Source: an uncultured Myxococcales bacterium (GTDB taxonomy: Bacteria; Myxococcota_A; UBA9042). From it: a stretch of 33,148 bases of DNA. The position numbers and the translations under genes were made by a program. Location of the stretch: positions 1 to 33,148 of the forward strand of contig CALGHC010000821.1 in NCBI GenBank assembly GCA_937915965.1, written 5' to 3'. Positions 14,929 to 23,950 of the stretch are shown piece by piece (the first letter of the stretch is position 1; each line of letters opens with the position of its first letter). The notes under the pieces were generated by a model. That model did not search any database. It saw only the letters and a list, made by a program, of their open reading frames with translations, and had not been told where the DNA came from.

Positions 14929-17900
14929 ATGTCCGATCGCTCTCAGCACACCGTCGCGCCCCATCCCGCGCCGCGGATGTCGGCGTGCCCCTCATCCACG
15001 CGTCGCGTCGTCGCGTGGATGGTCACCTGCAGCCTCGCCCTGATGGGCGCATGCGGCGACAACGACGAAGCGGTGGTCGGGCCGGCGCCCGGCGCCGGGG
15101 ACGCCGCCACCTCTGGTGATGGCGGCGTCGGCGTCGGGGCGGTGGTTGACGGCGGTGCAGTCGACGGCGCGTCCGCTGATACAGCATCCGCTGACAGCGT
15201 GTCCGCTGACGGGGCGTCGGTTGACGCCGGGGTCGCCGAAGCGGGTCCGACGGACGCAGACGTGGTCACCGAGGGCTGCTCGGACACCAATCCGTGCCCG
15301 GCCGCACAGGGTCCTTGCACGCAGGCGTTCTGCCACGACGACGGCAGCTGCAGCGACGAGCCACAACCGGCGGGCGCGCCTTGCGACGACGGTGACGCGT
15401 GCTCGCTGGGCGATCAGTGCGCCGACGGGATCTGCAAACCCGGCGCGTCTGCCGGTTGCGACGATGGCAACGTTTGCACGGCCGACGCTTGCGCGGCGGC
15501 CAGCGGCTGCACCCACGACGTCACCGCTGGTCTTTGTAGCGACGGCGACGCTTGCACCAGCGGCGACGCGTGCAGCGAAGGTGCTTGCGCGTCTGGGGGC
15601 CCGGTCGGCTGCGACGATGGCAACCCCTGTTCCGCCGATAGCTGCGATCCTGGCTCGGGTTGTCTGCACGACCCGACTCCCGGCGACTGCGACGACGGCA
15701 ACGCCTGTACGACCACGGACAGTTGCAATGGCGCCCTGTGCATGCCGGGTGCGGTCGTCGACTGCGAGGACGGCAACGGCTGCACGGTCGACAGCTGCCA
15801 CCCGGTCGATGGCTGCATCCACGCCTCTTCCGCCGCCGCCTGTGATGACGGCGATGCTTGCACGACGGCCGACGCGTGCGCGGACGGCGCCTGCGCCGGC
15901 GGCAAGCAGGTCGCATGCAGCGACGGCAACCCGTGCACCACGGACAGCTGCGAGGCCTCGTCTGGCTGTGTCTTCGCCAACCACACCGACGCCTGCGATG
16001 ACGGCAACGCTTGCACGATCGCCGACGCGTGCCTCGCTGGCCTCTGCCTGCCGGGTGCGGCGACGGCCTGCGATGACGGTAACCCCTGCACGACGGACGC
16101 GTGCGCACCCAAGAGCGGCTGCCAGGCCACCGCCAACACGCTGCCCTGCGACGATGGCGACGCGTGCACCACCGGCGATGCCTGCGCTGGCGGTAGCTGT
16201 GGCGGTGGGCCGCCGCCCGTATGTGACGACGGCAACCCGTGCACCGACGACAGCTGCGGCGCTGTTGCCGGCTGTCAGCATCTCGTCAACGCCAAGGCTT
16301 GTGACGACGGCAACGCTTGTTCTGGCGATGACCACTGCACCGGCGGTGCGTGCAAGCCCGGCAAGCCCGCCGCCTGCGACGACGACAACCCTTGCACAAC
16401 GGAGACCTGTGACCCGGGCGAGGGCTGCAAGAACATCGCGAACCTCCAGCCATGCAGCGACGGTGACAGCTGCACCGAGGCGGACACCTGCGCCGAGGGC
16501 AGCTGCTCGGCCGGCGCACCGTTGAAGTGCGCCGACGGCAACCCGTGCACGACCGACGCCTGCGATCCCGCCAAGGGCTGTGTCTTCACCCAGTCCAGCG
16601 ACCCTTGCGATGACGGCAGCGCATGCACCACCGCCGACCTGTGCAAGGCGGGCGTCTGCAATGGCGGGCCGATCCTGGCTTGCGATGATGGCAACGTCTG
16701 CACGATCGACGCTTGCGAACCCGCACTTGGCTGCGGACACACAGACAGCGACCCGCCGTGCGACGACGGTAGCGTCTGCACGGTCGGAGACGCGTGCGCC
16801 GGCGGCGCGTGCCAGCCCGGCAAGCTGATGGCCTGCGACGACGGCAACGCGTGCACGGCCGATGCGTGCGACTCGGTCGCGGGCTGCAGCCACACGCCGA
16901 CGACCGCCGGCTGCGACGACGGCAACGTCTGCACGCTAGGCGACGTGTGCAAGGCCGGCGTCTGCAAGCCGGGGAATGCGATCGCCTGCGACGATGGCGA
17001 GGCATGCACCGCCGACACCTGCGACGCAGAAGCCGGCTGTGTCCACAGCGCCGTCACCGTGCCCTGCACGGATGGGGACGCCTGTACGGTCGGGGACGCT
17101 TGCCTCGTGGGCTCTTGCGAGCCGGGCGCCGAGGCGGCGTGCGACGACGGCAACGGCTGTACCGTGGACTCGTGCCTCGCCGCGAGCGGATGTGCGCACG
17201 TCGCGTCGAGCGCACCCTGCGACGACGGTGACGCCTGCACGGTCGGCGACGCCTGCGCAGGCGCGGCGTGCCAGCCGGGCGATTCGGTGGTCTGTGACGA
17301 CGAGGAGCACTGCACGACCGACTACTGCGACGGCAAGAAGGGCTGCCTCACCTTGGCGAACGCGCTGACCTGCACCGATGACGACGCATGCAGCGAGGAC
17401 GACGGCTGCGCGGGCGGCGCCTGTGTCGGCGCGACCGTCGACTGCGACGACGGCAACCCATGCACCGCCGACAGCTGCGAGGCCGAGGCAGGCTGCCAGC
17501 ACGGCGCGGTCGCCGATGAGACCACGTGTGGAGCCTCCGGGCTGTGCTACGGCGGCACCTGCTCGGTGGGCAGTGACATCAACCCGGCGCCGGACTGCCT
17601 CGCCATCGCCGAGACCCTGTCTGGCACCGCCAGCGGCCTGTACTGGCTCGATCCAGATGGCCCGGGCGGCGCTGACAAGTTCCAGACGTGGTGCGAGATG
17701 AAGCTCGCTGGCGGCGGCTGGACCCTGCTCGCTGTCGTTGGTGGCAGCGCGCGGCCGCAGCTGTGGACCGGCGGCGCACACCCCCAGCCGGGCGCGACCT
17801 GGTACGGCACGCCGGGCGCGGACCTGGGCGATATCCTCGACCCCGCAAAGAATGGCGGAGTCGTCGCCAACTTCAGCATCAACGGCGCCGCGATCTTCGC

Positions 17901-18315
17901 CGCATCCGCGAAGCGTGAGGTCCTCGCCTGGGTTGGCGGCAGCACCGACGACTACGTCCTGGTCGCCCTGCCGGATCTGTGCAACCCGTTTGATATTCTG
18001 ACGAATTGCAAGGAAAATACCGTCATGGGATTGAAGGTCATCGACGCAGGCGGCAACACCTTGACGACCAACGGTCAGCTCTGTGGCACGGATGGCGACC
18101 CGTGCGGCTTCAACGAAGCCGGCTTTCATCTGCTCGATGGCGTCGAGGACAACCCTTCGTGTGCATGCCACAACGGCGCAGCCGACAGCGGCAGTCAGGG
18201 CTGGGGCCGCATCTGGACGAGCTTCAATCGTTCCGACGGCGGCTACTGGAACAGCGGCGTGCACAGCGCTTGGAAGGGCGGCTACAACCAGCCAGGAGCG
18301 CTCTTGATTCGCTGA
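14929..18315 (+). CDS. Giant Cys-rich repeat lipoprotein with fibrinogen-like C-terminal domain
   Basis: The 1128-residue product has a signal peptide with lipobox (Met-Gly-Ala-Cys, about residue 46), an Ala/Asp/Gly/Val linker to about residue 125, and a short Cys-containing spacer. Then come 28 Cys-rich units from residue 152 to about 864. They alternate strictly: type A (about 25 residues, CDDGDACTxGDxC...GxCxPG) and type B (26 residues, CDDGNPCTxDxCxxxxGCxH), giving 14 A/B pairs of about 51 residues with four cysteines per unit. The last 245 residues are a fibrinogen-C-like domain ('SGLYWLDPDG', 'WCEMKLAGGGWTLL', 'GWGRIWTSF'). Such proteins are typical of predatory or social myxobacteria. 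A disulfide-rich stalk presenting a carbohydrate-binding tip is inferred. GAGGAG precedes the ATG. Confidence 0.9.
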   Translation: MSDRSQHTVAPHPAPRMSACPSSTRRVVAWMVTCSLALMGACGDNDEAVVGPAPGAGDAATSGDGGVGVGAVVDGGAVDGASADTASADSVSADGASVDAGVAEAGPTDADVVTEGCSDTNPCPAAQGPCTQAFCHDDGSCSDEPQPAGAPCDDGDACSLGDQCADGICKPGASAGCDDGNVCTADACAAASGCTHDVTAGLCSDGDACTSGDACSEGACASGGPVGCDDGNPCSADSCDPGSGCLHDPTPGDCDDGNACTTTDSCNGALCMPGAVVDCEDGNGCTVDSCHPVDGCIHASSAAACDDGDACTTADACADGACAGGKQVACSDGNPCTTDSCEASSGCVFANHTDACDDGNACTIADACLAGLCLPGAATACDDGNPCTTDACAPKSGCQATANTLPCDDGDACTTGDACAGGSCGGGPPPVCDDGNPCTDDSCGAVAGCQHLVNAKACDDGNACSGDDHCTGGACKPGKPAACDDDNPCTTETCDPGEGCKNIANLQPCSDGDSCTEADTCAEGSCSAGAPLKCADGNPCTTDACDPAKGCVFTQSSDPCDDGSACTTADLCKAGVCNGGPILACDDGNVCTIDACEPALGCGHTDSDPPCDDGSVCTVGDACAGGACQPGKLMACDDGNACTADACDSVAGCSHTPTTAGCDDGNVCTLGDVCKAGVCKPGNAIACDDGEACTADTCDAEAGCVHSAVTVPCTDGDACTVGDACLVGSCEPGAEAACDDGNGCTVDSCLAASGCAHVASSAPCDDGDACTVGDACAGAACQPGDSVVCDDEEHCTTDYCDGKKGCLTLANALTCTDDDACSEDDGCAGGACVGATVDCDDGNPCTADSCEAEAGCQHGAVADETTCGASGLCYGGTCSVGSDINPAPDCLAIAETLSGTASGLYWLDPDGPGGADKFQTWCEMKLAGGGWTLLAVVGGSARPQLWTGGAHPQPGATWYGTPGADLGDILDPAKNGGVVANFSINGAAIFAASAKREVLAWVGGSTDDYVLVALPDLCNPFDILTNCKENTVMGLKVIDAGGNTLTTNGQLCGTDGDPCGFNEAGFHLLDGVEDNPSCACHNGAADSGSQGWGRIWTSFNRSDGGYWNSGVHSAWKGGYNQPGALLIR
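15382..17520 (+). repeat. 14 tandem copies of a ~153-bp A/B coding repeat
   Basis: Inside the lipoprotein gene, 28 short Cys-rich units alternate in two types, so the true period is about 153 bp (51 residues; the 2139-bp tract is 14 periods, one codon short). Units are diverged, not identical, so the array is old or is kept diverse. Every unit begins Cys-(Asp/Ser/Thr/Ala/Glu)-Asp and has four Cys. Confidence 0.9.
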
Positions 18316-18425: not shown

Positions 18426-19217
18426 CTAGCGCCCGAGACTCGCAGGTTCGAAGATCGCCGCGGGGAAGCGCTTGTCCGCTTCGATCTTCTCGACAACCAC
18501 GGTCGTCACCGAGGCGCGCAGGTGGTTCTCCATGCGCAGCCGACGCAGGATCGGCTTGCCCGCGTTCGCTTCGATCTCCTCGACAGTCAGGGTCTTGGCG
18601 AGCTTGCCATCGCGATCGAAGAAGCGGATTCGCCGGGGCAGCTTGTCGCTGCGGTCGATCCACAACTCCAGCTTGCCGTACGCGGCCTGTGCGTCGTCGT
18701 GGAAGGTGACCCTGAGGTGGTGGCAGGTGGCTTTGGCGACAACCTCGTCGTCGAGCTTCACCACGTCGGACTGTGCCGCCCAGCCGCCTCCCTCGAGATC
18801 GGCAAAGCTGAAGTCGGTGCCCATGAAGGGAGCGTTGCGCTGGCTGCCGCCGATTCGACGCGTGCGCTTCGTCTTGGGCAGGTAGAGGTACTGCACGGCG
18901 TGCCCGTCGCCGCCCTCAAGCACAAGCAGCTCGACGCCGCGGCTGTCGGCGGGCTCAAGGAAGGTGGCTCGACTGCGCACGCGGCCCTGGTCGCGTACGC
19001 TGCGGGTGACCAGGACCCAGACGCGTTGTTTGCCGTTGGCCAGGGTCAACGTCAGCGACGTGCGCGCTTCGCCCCCCTGCCATCCGGTCGAGTGGCGTTT
19101 CTCCATCTCGGTGAGGAGGGCGCGGGCCTCGGCGTCGGCGGCGCGCGCCGGGCTGCCGACCGCGGCGACGGCGATGGCGATCAAGAAGGCAGCGAATTGG
19201 GCGTGAGCGCGTTGCAT
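18426..19217 (-). CDS. Outer-membrane lipoprotein-sorting (LolA-like) protein
   Basis: The 263-residue product has a Sec signal peptide (cleavage near Ala-Arg-Ala-Ala, residue 27). The mature domain has the pattern of the LolA-like family often annotated 'outer membrane lipoprotein-sorting protein': 'FLEPADSRGVELLVLEG', 'QYLYLPKTKRTRRIGGSQRNAPFMGTDF' (split motif), and 'KLELWIDRSDKLPRRIRFFDRDGKL'. These are periplasmic lipid-binding half-barrels, frequently working with RND/MMPL exporters; none is encoded here. GGAG lies 7 nt before the ATG. It lies 18 bp after the fibrinogen-like gene on the same strand, so the two are probably co-transcribed. Confidence 0.87.
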   Translation of the reverse strand: MQRAHAQFAAFLIAIAVAAVGSPARAADAEARALLTEMEKRHSTGWQGGEARTSLTLTLANGKQRVWVLVTRSVRDQGRVRSRATFLEPADSRGVELLVLEGGDGHAVQYLYLPKTKRTRRIGGSQRNAPFMGTDFSFADLEGGGWAAQSDVVKLDDEVVAKATCHHLRVTFHDDAQAAYGKLELWIDRSDKLPRRIRFFDRDGKLAKTLTVEEIEANAGKPILRRLRMENHLRASVTTVVVEKIEADKRFPAAIFEPASLGR

Positions 19218-19235
19218 GGGTTCTCCGTTCGAGGC

Positions 19236-21182
19236 TCAGCGGACCATCAGCCAGATCGGCGCCGCCTTGCAGTAGCCCGCGACGCACTTGTTGCCGTTGA
19301 GCGCGCCGTTGCCTTCGTTGTCGAGGTAGCCGTTGGTGCCGTCGACGGTTGACCAGATGTCGAGCCAGGCGTCCGTTCCACCGTGGCTCTCGGAGATGCC
19401 ATTGGCGGGATAGAAGTGAAGAGACGCGACCGTCGCCGGCCCCGTGGTCTTGCCGCCGACGACCTTGGAGAAGCCGCCGAAGGTCGGGCTGTCGTTGCCG
19501 CTCGCGCCCTGCAGATAGGCCGCGAAGCCGGCGTGGGCGCTCTTTTCCCAGACGACCCGCGGGTCAGCGGCGGTGGCAAACCGCCACATCGCCTGGGTCC
19601 AGGCGAGACCATCGGCGATCTTTGAGGCGCAGTCGTCGGACTTGCTGACGCCGCACGCCGCGGCGAACTTGGCGCTCCAGGCGACGAAGGCCGAGCTGAC
19701 CTTGGTGTTCACAAGCGTCCAACCGCCGCCGTCTGTGGTCATGTCGCAAAACACCTGGAACGCGACGTCCTTGGGCTTGAGCCAGTACAGGCCGTCGCCC
19801 TTGCCGTCGCCGGCTTGCTGGATCGCCAGGCACGAAGTCGCCGGGTTCGCCTCGGTGCCGACTGGCGTCGTGCAGCCGGTGGTCTTGAAGGCAGCGCAGC
19901 CGTCTTTGCAGCCGAGCACACCGATCCACTCGATGCCCAGAATCGTCGCGCAGGTCTCCAGGCCGACGTTCTTGCCGTCGCAGGTCTCGACCCCTGTTCG
20001 GATAAAGCCGTCGCCGCAGATCGCCTTCTGACAGGCGACGCACGCATCGGTCTGGTCGGTGTTGCCGTCGTCGCAGACCTCGACGCCGTCAAAGACCACG
20101 CCGTCCCCACAGACGTTCTTGTCGCACTTGTTGGTGCAGCTGTCGGTGTCGGTCTGGTTGCCGTCGTCGCAGGTCTCGGGCGGGTCGACCTCCTGATCGC
20201 CGCAGATCGGCACCAGGGCGAGCTGACGCCAGGCGCCCTTGCGGTGGATCCAGGTGTTGCCGGAGTCCTTGCGGTAGACGAGCTGGCCGTCCTTGGCCAC
20301 CTTGGCCATCTCGTCGTCGCTCGTCGCGATCCGCGTCATCAGGGCCGGCGCGCCGTCGACGCATGCGGTGCCGCCGTCGCTGGCCACGTCGAGGACGCAT
20401 GCGTCCGCGGGGAACTTGCCTACGCCGACACCAGCCATGAACGCGTTGGGTTTGGCGAAGGTGTTCTTGGTGTCAGTGCGCGCGTACGCGGCCAGGACCG
20501 CGGCGTCGAGGTGTTCCGCCGTGATGCAGCCTGTGCACTTGAGATCAGCCGCCTCGAGCGCCTCGAGAGCGGCGCCCTCCTTTTGATTGGCGGCGGCGTA
20601 GGCGAAGGCGAGGGCGCTGCCGGGCACCGAGGCCGGCAACAGCTGTTTGCCGTCGAGCGGGCCGGTCAGTTCGTCGGCGACCTTGGCATGCCAGGCCTGC
20701 GGCAGCCGCGCCAGAGGCCTGCGCGCGAGCTCTGGGTCGCCGCCGACCTGAACGCCGATCCACGGCGAGGCGTGATCGGTGAAGAACACGTCGGCGAGCG
20801 GGTTCTTCTTGTCGGCCGTGCCTACGTCGAGGGCGAAGCGACCCTGGACGACCGGCACCGCGACGTGGATCTCCTTCCACAGTGACTCCACCGCGTCGGC
20901 CGTCTCGTAGAGTTGCACGGTCAGGGCGTATTCGCCGTCCGCCACGGGGCCGCCCCCCACCGTCGTCAGCGCGCCTTGCATCGGGATCGACGCGGAAGCG
21001 GCGTAGGCGGTCTGGGGCGCGACGATCGCGGCCAAGACGGTGGCAATCAGGACGGTAGCGCTCAGGACGGTAGCGCTCAGGACGGTGGCGCTCCAGACGG
21101 TAGCGCTCAGGACGGTAGCGCTCCGGACGGGGGCGCTCAGGACGGTATCGACAGCGCAAACGTGGCCGGGCCGGTTGGACAT
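19236..21182 (-). CDS. Secreted Cys-rich protein with fibrinogen-like domain and repeat-built signal peptide
   Basis: The 648-residue product has an N-terminal region of about 61 residues whose hydrophobic core is built of an Ser-Ala-Thr-Val-Leu pentapeptide repeat. It ends in Thr-Ala-Tyr-Ala followed by Ala-Ser-Ala, a good signal peptidase I site. A structured region of about 260 residues follows ('GALTTVGGGPVADGEYALTV', split here by family wording only), seen in myxobacterial surface proteins. Then come DUF4215-type Cys-rich repeats (about 325-420, 'CDDGN', 'CGDGVV', 'CGDGFI') and a fibrinogen-C-like domain (about 440-648, 'DGLYWLKPKD', 'FCDMTTDGGGWTLV'). The ATG at 21182 has GGAG 8 nt upstream. 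It shares its C-terminal domain type with the giant lipoprotein at 14929-18315. Confidence 0.87.
   Translation of the reverse strand: MSNRPGHVCAVDTVLSAPVRSATVLSATVWSATVLSATVLSATVLIATVLAAIVAPQTAYAASASIPMQGALTTVGGGPVADGEYALTVQLYETADAVESLWKEIHVAVPVVQGRFALDVGTADKKNPLADVFFTDHASPWIGVQVGGDPELARRPLARLPQAWHAKVADELTGPLDGKQLLPASVPGSALAFAYAAANQKEGAALEALEAADLKCTGCITAEHLDAAVLAAYARTDTKNTFAKPNAFMAGVGVGKFPADACVLDVASDGGTACVDGAPALMTRIATSDDEMAKVAKDGQLVYRKDSGNTWIHRKGAWRQLALVPICGDQEVDPPETCDDGNQTDTDSCTNKCDKNVCGDGVVFDGVEVCDDGNTDQTDACVACQKAICGDGFIRTGVETCDGKNVGLETCATILGIEWIGVLGCKDGCAAFKTTGCTTPVGTEANPATSCLAIQQAGDGKGDGLYWLKPKDVAFQVFCDMTTDGGGWTLVNTKVSSAFVAWSAKFAAACGVSKSDDCASKIADGLAWTQAMWRFATAADPRVVWEKSAHAGFAAYLQGASGNDSPTFGGFSKVVGGKTTGPATVASLHFYPANGISESHGGTDAWLDIWSTVDGTNGYLDNEGNGALNGNKCVAGYCKAAPIWLMVR
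21036..21155 (-). repeat. Eight 15-bp tandem repeats forming a signal-peptide core
   Basis: Eight contiguous 15-bp units read GACGGTAGCGCTCAG on the plus strand with one to a few changes in some copies. On the coding (minus) strand each unit encodes one Leu-Ser-Ala-Thr-Val pentapeptide. They make up most of the hydrophobic core of the signal peptide of the 648-residue secreted protein. Confidence 0.93.
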
Positions 21183-21347
21183 GGTGGTACTCCAAGAGCC
21201 CGAATCGCGGGCGGGAACGTCGAACACACTACCGTCTGACCCGGGCTGCGGCAAACCGTCGTTGTCGCCGCGTGCCGGTCTTCTCGCCGTGCAGGCGCCC
21301 ATCCCTGGTTCGCAGGTCGCCCCCGCCGAGCGACCTCGCTCGGCGCG

Positions 21348-22166
21348 TTATTCCTCGTGGCCGTCAAAGGCGACGCCGTCGGGCAGCCACCTCTTGGTGC
21401 GGGCGTGCTCGCGGGTGCGGGTCGTGCGCTCGGTGCGGTAGCAGTGGCCACGGGCGGCGAGTTGGACGCGGTGGCTCGCACCGGGCAGCGCGCGCTTCAA
21501 CTCCGCGATCACGGCCTGGGGCTCAAAAAACCGGCACGAAAAGATGTCGAAGAAGGCGCGGCCGCTCGCTTCGTAGATGTGCAGCGCGATGTGGCTCTCG
21601 GCGATCATCGTCATCGCCGACAGCACGCCGCTGCCGTCGGCCAGGCGCGAGCGCAGGACATACGGTCGCATGATCGGCGTCATGTCGATGCGAGCGGGCA
21701 GGGTGTCGAAGAGCGCGAACAGGCCGTCCATCTCGCGTGGCCCGGCGTAGCCGTCGATGTCGATGAAGAGGTGCGGGCCGAAGTCTTCGTTGGCGTCGAC
21801 CGGCGGCGCTTGCCGGGTCTCGCGGCGCTCGGTCGTGATCGAGGTCTGCTCGCGTGTCGGCAGGCCCAGCCCGAAGAGGCGCACCGCCTCGCGCTCGTCG
21901 AAGGCCATCGGGCTGAGTAGATCAGCGAAGTAGCACTCGCGATACGAGAACGTATGCAAGGTGAGGTGGCCGCCGGGCAGGAAGACGAAGGCGGAGACGC
22001 CGCAGTCGTCGGGCTCGACGCCGTTGTAGTACGGCAGCAACATCGGCGGCATCGCAGCCGTCAAACCGAGCCGATCGGGCAGCTCCTCGACGAGCTCATG
22101 TACCAAACGGATGTCGTCGAAGCGCGAGCGGTGGCCGCCAAAGCCGTCGAGGGTCAGGTGCTGCAT
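21348..22166 (-). CDS. SpeD-like protein with two AdoMet-decarboxylase domains (N-terminal copy degenerate)
   Basis: The 272-residue product resembles two bacterial S-adenosylmethionine decarboxylase (SpeD) domains in tandem. The C-terminal copy (about residues 129-230) keeps 'GPHLFIDIDGY', the self-cleavage motif Ala-Glu-Ser-His with Ser191 (future pyruvoyl), 'LHIYEASGRAFFDIFSC' and Cys211. The N-terminal copy (about 4-90) has the same pattern, but the Ser position is Gly66 (Pro-Gly-Gly-His) and the Cys position is Pro86. Pyruvoyl SpeD makes decarboxylated AdoMet for spermidine; some SpeD-like homologues instead decarboxylate arginine or ornithine, so the substrate is uncertain. No spermidine synthase is adjacent. 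Its Shine-Dalgarno lies in a 12-bp tandem repeat. Confidence 0.85.
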   Translation of the reverse strand: MQHLTLDGFGGHRSRFDDIRLVHELVEELPDRLGLTAAMPPMLLPYYNGVEPDDCGVSAFVFLPGGHLTLHTFSYRECYFADLLSPMAFDEREAVRLFGLGLPTREQTSITTERRETRQAPPVDANEDFGPHLFIDIDGYAGPREMDGLFALFDTLPARIDMTPIMRPYVLRSRLADGSGVLSAMTMIAESHIALHIYEASGRAFFDIFSCRFFEPQAVIAELKRALPGASHRVQLAARGHCYRTERTTRTREHARTKRWLPDGVAFDGHEE

Positions 22167-22246: not shown

Positions 22247-23950
22247 GTGACCCAGGTCATCGCCGTGCCACAATCCCGCGTCGTGAACAGGTGCCACCAG
22301 CAGCTCAGGCCGCGACTCGGGCTGCCGCCTTGGCGGATGCTCTGGTCAGACCTTCGCGGCCGAGTTCGTTTGCCGTTCGCGCGGTTCGTGCGGTTCGTGC
22401 GGTTCGTGCGGTTCGTGCGGTTCGTGCGGTTCGTGTCGTTCGTGCCGTTCGTGGCGCTGTGCCTCGCCTCGCTGGCGGCGCTCGTGCTGGTCTGTGGGTC
22501 TGCACGCGTCGCCCGCGCCGACGGCTTTACGATCTTCCGTGGTCGCGCCGCCGCCGTCCTCGCCCTGGACTGGCAGGGGCAGGACCCGGCCGAGGACGTC
22601 GCCGATCTGGCCACCCGCCTCGACCTCGATCTGCGCCACCCGATCGACGAGTCGAGCCGGGTGCATCTGGGCGCGCGGCTGAGCTGGCGCGCGCTCGCAG
22701 GCCACCGCGATGGCGTGCCGCACGTGACCGCCGACTGGCCCGGCTTTGGTCTGCGCTACGACGCCCACGCCGAGCTTCGTGAGGCGACCCTTGAGTGGCT
22801 GCGGCCCTGGGGCAGGCTGACGTTGGGCAACGACGTCGTCGCTTGGGGTGCCGTCGAAGCCGGTAGCCCCCTGGACATCCTCAACCCAAAGGACTTCTCG
22901 TTGGGATTCGCCGCGGCGGGTGCCGGCGAACCGGGCAGCATGGCGCTGCCCGACCCGATGTTGCGCTATGAGCGTTCGTTCGCCACAGGCGCCCTCGCCG
23001 TCGTCTACCAGCCCTTCTTTGCAGGCCACCGCGTCAGCCCATTCGCCACCGACACCGCGATGTTGTCACCCGCAGCCGGCCCCGCCCTGCCGTCCTCGCT
23101 GCTGGTGCTGACCCGCAGCCTCGACCTGCGCCTCGATCGCCAGCTTGGCGAGGCGCTCACCACCGCGCTTGAACCACCCGCGGCCACCCCCTTGGCCGGA
23201 TCGGTCGCCGCGCGCTGGCGCATGCGCCTCGGTCCTGTCGACGTCGCCATCGACGCGATCGAGGCCTGGGACCGGATGCCGGCCCTTGTCTTTGACGACG
23301 ATGCCGCCACTGTCCTTGGCGCCGTTGGCGCCGCTGGTTTCGACCAGGGCGCGCTGGCGACCGCGTTTCTCGATCCACAGGTGCAAGCGGCGATGGGCCG
23401 GCTCGAGGCGACCGGCAAGGAGCCGACTGATCTCGTCACGGCCAGCTGGCACCGGCGGACGACGCTGGGCCTCGAGGTAGTTGCCGAGCTCGGCGAGGGC
23501 TGGATGCTGCGCGCCGACTTCGCCTTCACTCTGGCCAAAGTGCTGCTTGACGAGGATTTTGTCGCCTTCCGCTCGCCGCTCTCCCAGGTCGCCATGACGC
23601 TGGAGTACGCACCGGACGACGCGCTGGTGATCGTATTGCTTGTCACCGGCGACTGGATTCACCGCGCTCCCCCTGGCCGGGGTGTATTCCTGATGGCCGA
23701 AAAGGAGTTGGGTGTCGGCGGCGGGCTGGCTTGGTCGTTCGGAGACGGTCAGCTCTGGCGCCTGACTCTCGGCGGGCGCCACGGCGTGGTGCTTGGCGAC
23801 AGCGTCGCCACGGGTCGGCTGGGGTACCGTTTCGACGGCGGCCTCGACGCCGGCTTTGGTGCTCTGTGGCTCGCGGGGCCCCCGACGAGCCCCGCTGGTC
23901 TGTTTCGCGACAACGACCAGGTCGTATTCGACGTGCAGTATCCTTTCTAG
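22247..23950 (+). CDS. Outer-membrane protein, DUF1302-like
   Basis: The 567-residue product has an unusually long N-terminal export region: up to 45 residues, then Arg-Phe-Val six times, then Ser-Phe-Val, Pro-Phe-Val and a hydrophobic core ending in Ala-Arg-Ala before Asp-Gly-Phe. The mature part has barrel-type strands and the pattern 'NDVVAWGAVEAGSPLDILNP' plus 'LPDPMLRYE', which matches the DUF1302 outer-membrane family, and it ends in Tyr-Pro-Phe. The GTG at 22247 is the longest start; an ATG at 22337 would leave a 37-residue Arg-rich N region and may be the real one. Neither has a strong Shine-Dalgarno. Substrate is unknown. Confidence 0.75.
   Translation: MTQVIAVPQSRVVNRCHQQLRPRLGLPPWRMLWSDLRGRVRLPFARFVRFVRFVRFVRFVRFVSFVPFVALCLASLAALVLVCGSARVARADGFTIFRGRAAAVLALDWQGQDPAEDVADLATRLDLDLRHPIDESSRVHLGARLSWRALAGHRDGVPHVTADWPGFGLRYDAHAELREATLEWLRPWGRLTLGNDVVAWGAVEAGSPLDILNPKDFSLGFAAAGAGEPGSMALPDPMLRYERSFATGALAVVYQPFFAGHRVSPFATDTAMLSPAAGPALPSSLLVLTRSLDLRLDRQLGEALTTALEPPAATPLAGSVAARWRMRLGPVDVAIDAIEAWDRMPALVFDDDAATVLGAVGAAGFDQGALATAFLDPQVQAAMGRLEATGKEPTDLVTASWHRRTTLGLEVVAELGEGWMLRADFAFTLAKVLLDEDFVAFRSPLSQVAMTLEYAPDDALVIVLLVTGDWIHRAPPGRGVFLMAEKELGVGGGLAWSFGDGQLWRLTLGGRHGVVLGDSVATGRLGYRFDGGLDAGFGALWLAGPPTSPAGLFRDNDQVVFDVQYPF
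22373..22453 (+). repeat. Nine 9-bp tandem repeats encoding Arg-Phe-Val
   Basis: Nine contiguous nonamers: CCGTTCGCG, six identical CGGTTCGTG, then TCGTTCGTG and CCGTTCGTG. They are in frame and encode Pro-Phe-Ala, six Arg-Phe-Val, Ser-Phe-Val and Pro-Phe-Val just before the hydrophobic core of the signal peptide. Six perfect copies indicate recent expansion. Confidence 0.95.

Follow-up and report, generated by a model that had tools for sequence, protein, structure and literature searches.

An in-frame 15-bp minisatellite runs through most of the signal peptide of a secreted mosaic protein encoded in the window, by which we mean the whole 33,148-nucleotide stretch of contig CALGHC010000821.1 that was analysed, and it is probably a product of minisatellite growth that occurs genome-wide and is tolerated in signal peptides when it is in frame and of suitable composition. 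In-frame arrays that arose independently in about 9% of the sampled signal peptides suggest a tolerated habit rather than a dedicated on/off switch. The features on which this reading rests are collected in the table below.

Table. Features of the window at and around the array-bearing gene (window positions)
Feature	Position	Strand	Remarks
LolA-like lipoprotein-sorting protein	18426-19217	(-)	next after speD in relatives
Gene for 648-aa secreted mosaic protein, 1,947 bp	19236-21182	(-)	one of about 100 paralogues
Probable Sec signal peptide	21000-21182	(-)	~61 residues, ATG 21182 to ...QTAYA; strongest core 44-55
15-bp minisatellite	21036-21147	(-)	~7.5 copies, 8-9 with diverged edge units; TRF, unit table, shuffles
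Ribosome binding site region, TTGGAG	21183-21200	(-)	upstream of ATG 21182
S-adenosylmethionine decarboxylase (speD-like)	21348-22166	(-)	conserved neighbour, synteny anchor
12-bp x3 repeat directly 5' of the speD-like start codon	22174-22209	(-)	TRF
Putative outer-membrane/secreted (OMP-like) protein, 537 aa, (RFV)n signal peptide	22337-23950	(+)	
9-bp minisatellite x9.2, (RFV)n, N-terminal side of the neighbour signal peptide	22371-22453	(+)	TRF

The protein consists of the signal peptide, a conserved N-terminal domain, two DUF4215/myxo disulfide repeats and a fibrinogen-like GGGW domain. Matches to GGGWT_bact (1.8e-17), DUF4215 and, weakly, Fibrinogen_C (1.1e-5), together with the probable Sec signal peptide, bear out the original prediction that the product is Cys-rich, fibrinogen-like and secreted. 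The YCDxxxxGGGW domain scores 63 bits against NF040941, for which the curated cut-off is 30, the C-terminal part of the profile gives weak matches to a serum lectin and tenascin, and a search with the whole 648-aa protein returned no named relatives. Is the repeat translated at all? Translation from a downstream start, which would make the array 5' untranslated sequence, is hardly credible. A TTG codon is indeed present in the last unit, but ATG 21182 has a good Shine-Dalgarno sequence (TTGGAG-TACCACC-ATG, with TTGGAG seven bases 5' of the ATG) and was the start picked by a coding-potential gene finder. We rejected the downstream start because initiation at the TTG would lose the basic N-region, and translation through the repeat, as had been proposed, is upheld.

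TRF describes the array with period 15, 7.5 copies, 84% matches and a score of 161, and an alternative call of the same array has period 45 and a score of 182, whereas the top TRF score in 100 dinucleotide shuffles of the window was 72. By eye 8 to 9 units can be counted. Array copy numbers come from short-read assembly, which may misstate them. The head-to-tail arrangement and the period, within the 6-100 bp range, are those of a minisatellite. Lying inside the open reading frame after the start codon, the array reads from ATG 21182 as AVDTV, LSAPV, RSATV, LSATV, WSATV, LSATV, LSATV, LIATV and LAAIV, which are residues 10-54 of the 648-aa ORF and conform largely to an in-frame (L/R/W)(S/I)A(T/P)V unit, with exact LSATV in three. 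The inner units are near-identical and those at the edges have diverged, as is usual when an array expands in the middle. An exact 20-mer search found no second site for the unit in the genome, and exchange of the array between paralogues was rejected because the unit is unique; a single allele was found in the assembly contigs examined. The prediction of in-frame 15-bp repeats encoding an LSATV-type run is thus confirmed, and so is its corollary: because in-frame 15-bp units lie inside the probable signal peptide, each copy gained or lost would lengthen or shorten it by five residues without a frameshift. The locus shares with contingency loci a simple tandem repeat in a gene, scoring far above the shuffles; the change of frame or promoter spacing that gives on/off switching at such loci is not expected here, since a period of 15 keeps the frame.

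The units are followed by APQTAYA and then by the mature start ASASIPMQG, with cleavage placed after AYA by the -3,-1 rule and the signal peptide judged by rule and by eye. Basic residues R4 and R20, a hydrophobic core at residues 44-55 and A-Y-A before ASASIP are what is expected of a Sec signal peptide cleaved by SPase I, and its length of ~61 residues exceeds the usual range of about 20-35. In a hydropathy scan the best 12-residue core, residues 44-55 (VLIATVLAAIVA, KD 2.98), comes from the two diverged units at the end, and about half of it falls within TRF's array coordinates. The regular LSATV units precede this core and are only mildly hydrophobic, windows within residues 20-43 scoring about 0.55 to 1.7, and they are broken up by one tryptophan and one arginine unit. 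What the array adds is therefore, for the most part, an N-terminal extension to a signal peptide that is otherwise normal. The original prediction that the repeats make up most of the hydrophobic core was overstated, also in the light of 83 array-free paralogues that have a short signal peptide of equal core strength.

These features suggest how the array may have come about. A minisatellite typical of this genome would have grown, in frame, within an ordinary Sec signal peptide, in its N-terminal part and the upstream part of its core. It probably started as a tandem duplication of local signal-peptide codons, given that LIATV and LAAIV, the diverged units of the core, keep the array register, and it would later have expanded by slippage or unequal exchange. 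The signal peptide would thereby have been lengthened to ~61 residues, with the final core and its distance to the mature protein unchanged. Such growth would be tolerated because all that a signal peptide needs is still there: a maintained frame, a basic N-terminus, a hydrophobic core and a suitably spaced cleavage site. The array is thus probably dispensable for export, and copy change, if any, would chiefly make the N-terminal extension longer or shorter and modulate export only mildly.

Relatives carry an OMP-like gene followed by speD and a LolA-like gene, the last two being adjacent, and a family gene between speD and the LolA-like gene was found only in the window; by this comparison of gene order the fibrinogen-like gene is a lineage-specific insertion (window 18426-22166). 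The named relatives reached by speD alignment are MAGs of uncultured Myxococcota, many of them named after lakes. The divergently transcribed OMP-like neighbour carries an array of its own, (RFV)n, which is absent from its orthologues in 12 relatives, whose N-termini are ordinary. If read in frame, the 12-bp x3 repeat before speD would give NRDGNRDDNREPK. A terminator-like hairpin, CGCCGAGCG-ACCT-CGCTCGGCG, lies at 21324-21345 between speD and the family gene, and the count of such hairpins is about chance level. A 153-bp repeat (16676-17053) lies in a Cys-rich ORF of 1,099 aa on the plus strand (15019-18315). A plasmid home was considered and rejected, there being no match. Contig CAMDBH010000029.1, labelled Klebsiella pneumoniae, has the myxobacterial OMP-speD-LolA block with a speD 67% identical, and is probably mislabelled.

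How common are such arrays in this genome? To be counted, an array had to have a period of 5 or more, 3 or more copies and no less than 80% matches; gene starts came from a home-made finder and signal peptides from a crude rule. In the MAG (G000; 944 contigs, 5.83 Mb, 89.5% complete) there were 134 arrays in 678 kb, or 19.8 per 100 kb, in sampled stretches most of which were picked for containing family genes, and an unselected contig sample with masked ones removed gave 16.3 per 100 kb. Arrays are 4- to more than 20-fold rarer in genomes of the same family (in small samples of these relatives, 4.9 per 100 kb in G008 and 0-2.5 in six others). Within the MAG, density falls from 10.45 arrays per 10 kb in intergenic DNA to 3.06 over the first 60 codons and 0.55 over the remaining CDS, and the period was a multiple of three in all 23 N-terminal arrays versus 41 of 82 intergenic ones (p 2e-6). 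Among 202 genes with a predicted signal peptide, 18 (about 9%) have an array inside it. The original prediction took no account of these genes or of the OMP-like neighbour (22337-23950), in which the same is seen. At 8.8 arrays per 10 kb, signal-peptide coding DNA is about as array-dense as intergenic DNA (ratio 0.84, p 0.62) and 12-fold denser than the remaining CDS (p 2e-12). This equality, which general tolerance explains, weakens the idea that phase variation of an unusual form is at work. The frame used is the most hydrophobic of the six in 11 of the 18 signal-peptide arrays (mean 0.84 versus -1.28, p 4e-5), as expected if arrays grow from signal-peptide sequence or if only compatible ones survive.

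What might explain the abundance of repeats in this genome? Loss of mismatch repair was rejected as the cause because MutS, MutL and RecJ are present. No full-length copy of SbcC or SbcD was found in G000, G008, G001 or G014, SbcC is present in most relatives, and G000 and G008 are the array-rich genomes among the well-sampled ones. However, G017, a relative that has both SbcC and SbcD, shows 4 arrays in 14.6 kb, so that SbcCD loss as a cause is only a lead.

The paralogues provide a comparison within one genome. With the first 325 residues as query, 124 matches corresponding to about 100 genes were found in the MAG, and the same family is present in most genomes of the same taxonomic family. 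In 16 aligned members the N-terminal half is common, DUF4215 repeats are shared by most, and the C-termini are unrelated (fibrinogen-like, TLDc, endostatin-like or DUF1554); the ~100 paralogues are a large modular surface-protein family with interchangeable C-terminal domains. An in-frame array in the signal-peptide region is found in 16 of the 99 members with a callable start, including four added by hand where the automatic filter had kept another TRF row or, once, a later start, and 83 have none. The units are unlike between paralogues (ARS, TS, LRSRIG, VASL, LAP, FSVRPV, VGL, ATV, FSTRL, MTKP and AVPAVR). The median signal-peptide length to the mature domain is 55 residues with an array and 34 without (p 1e-5), and the core starts at residue 32 versus 11 (p 5e-6), whereas neither the hydrophobicity of the core (2.69 versus 2.57, p 0.33) nor its distance to the domain (10 versus 11, p 0.86) differs. 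A longer signal peptide with unchanged core strength and spacing indicates that the arrays add sequence before or within the core and keep the working geometry. At the end of one contig (L118:5444-5498), a 12-bp array encodes MTKPMTKPMTKPMTKP, which would place a possible ATG start of a family gene in every unit.

Two observations count against tolerated growth as the whole explanation. Signal peptides exceed cytosolic N-termini in array density (8.8 versus 3.5 per 10 kb, 2.5 times, p 0.02; by genes with an N-terminal array, 18/202 versus 9/217, p 0.07), so a factor beyond N-terminal tolerance could act. In some genes the array itself is the hydrophobic core, namely L125 (5254-5316), where it is (VGL)7, L072 (10811-10890), a lipoprotein whose array reads VNVANVANVA...GC, L095 (1259-1307) and L077 (9135-9191), and there copy number could matter. 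The original idea would fit genes of the L125 and L072 type better than the gene in the window, and all the genes just listed would make better test cases for copy-number tuning.

Adaptive tuning of export, in which a hypervariable copy number would set the exported amount in five-residue steps, is unlikely for the window gene. The protein whose signal peptide holds the in-frame array does belong to a large surface-protein family, the excess over cytosolic N-termini speaks for tuning, and in the human CNDP1 gene the length of a signal-peptide repeat can alter secretion (PMC13116943). In a synthetic yeast system the number of hydrophobic core residues affects secretion (PMC4347551), so an export effect of the array is conceivable. 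Contig ends lie inside tandem arrays more often than random points do (12.3% versus 4.5%, p 1e-4), as tuning would predict if arrays are long or heterogeneous, an enrichment that fits plain assembly limits equally well. Against tuning, the regular units do not include the strongest core, which is found at the C-terminal edge, array-bearing paralogues keep core strength and spacing, intergenic DNA is just as array-dense, and in the contigs examined of this one MAG a single allele and no copy-number variant was seen. The broader proposal that the minisatellites in ~9% of signal peptides are frame-preserving export rheostats, serving as lineage-wide bet-hedging in which simultaneous copy changes in many signal peptides diversify the display of ~100 related surface proteins, is distinctly doubtful.

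It is very improbable that length itself was selected, with the array merely the means and the N-terminal extension slowing or rerouting export as in the extended signal peptides of autotransporters. Array-bearing signal peptides do mostly measure 45-79 residues to the domain, but the extensions are unrelated (LSATV, ARS, TS, FSTRL, MTKP) and share no common motif, and most paralogues, 83 of 99, manage without one. We give next to no credence to a role of the repeat as DNA or RNA, for example in paralogue recombination or translation control. About 100 paralogues and the closeness of the array to the start codon could be cited for it, but the unit occurs at the 21036-21147 locus only, the RNA fold is nothing unusual (z -1.04) and the frame is strictly kept. 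Growth of a minisatellite that the signal peptide tolerates accounts for these observations with the highest probability.

The looseness of signal-peptide sequence is already known, and here it becomes measurable: in one bacterial genome, signal-peptide coding DNA matches non-coding DNA in minisatellite density and yet keeps the frame strictly. The ~100 paralogues with and without arrays form a natural experiment on which signal-peptide features are held (core strength and core-to-cleavage distance) and which drift (length and N-region). Should copy number vary, these genes would also test tuning of bacterial export via signal-peptide length, and if it is constant, the set of arrays remains informative on how new N-terminal sequence comes about.

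We found no description in the open-access literature of signal peptides as a genome-wide site of minisatellites. The domain content is that of the Myxococcota GGGWT_bact/DUF4215 mosaic secreted proteins, but that family at large needs no array, which is specific to this copy and this genome. In bacterial surface proteins, coding VNTRs, for example the staphylococcal SD repeats (PMC3324548), are likewise in-frame minisatellites with possible copy-number change, but they sit in the surface protein itself, unlike the arrays described here, which lie in a signal peptide that is removed. The closest precedents are the human CNDP1 leucine repeat and the leader repeats of Neisseria opa. In CNDP1, a (CTG)n leucine repeat lies in frame within the carnosinase signal peptide, as here, and its length changes hydrophobicity and secretion (PMC13116943); that repeat, however, is a eukaryotic, polymorphic trinucleotide leucine run, whereas the regular units in the window gene mostly precede the strongest core. 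In Neisseria opa, a (CTCTT)n repeat codes for the leader peptide of a many-membered surface protein family and drives phase variation by frameshift at ~1e-3 per cell per generation (PMC3960869). The present family is reminiscent of opa in having tandem repeats in the 5' coding part, in a leader peptide and in a many-membered surface family, but in place of a pentamer that switches by frameshift, the window gene has a period of 15 that stays in frame, and the unit differs from gene to gene.
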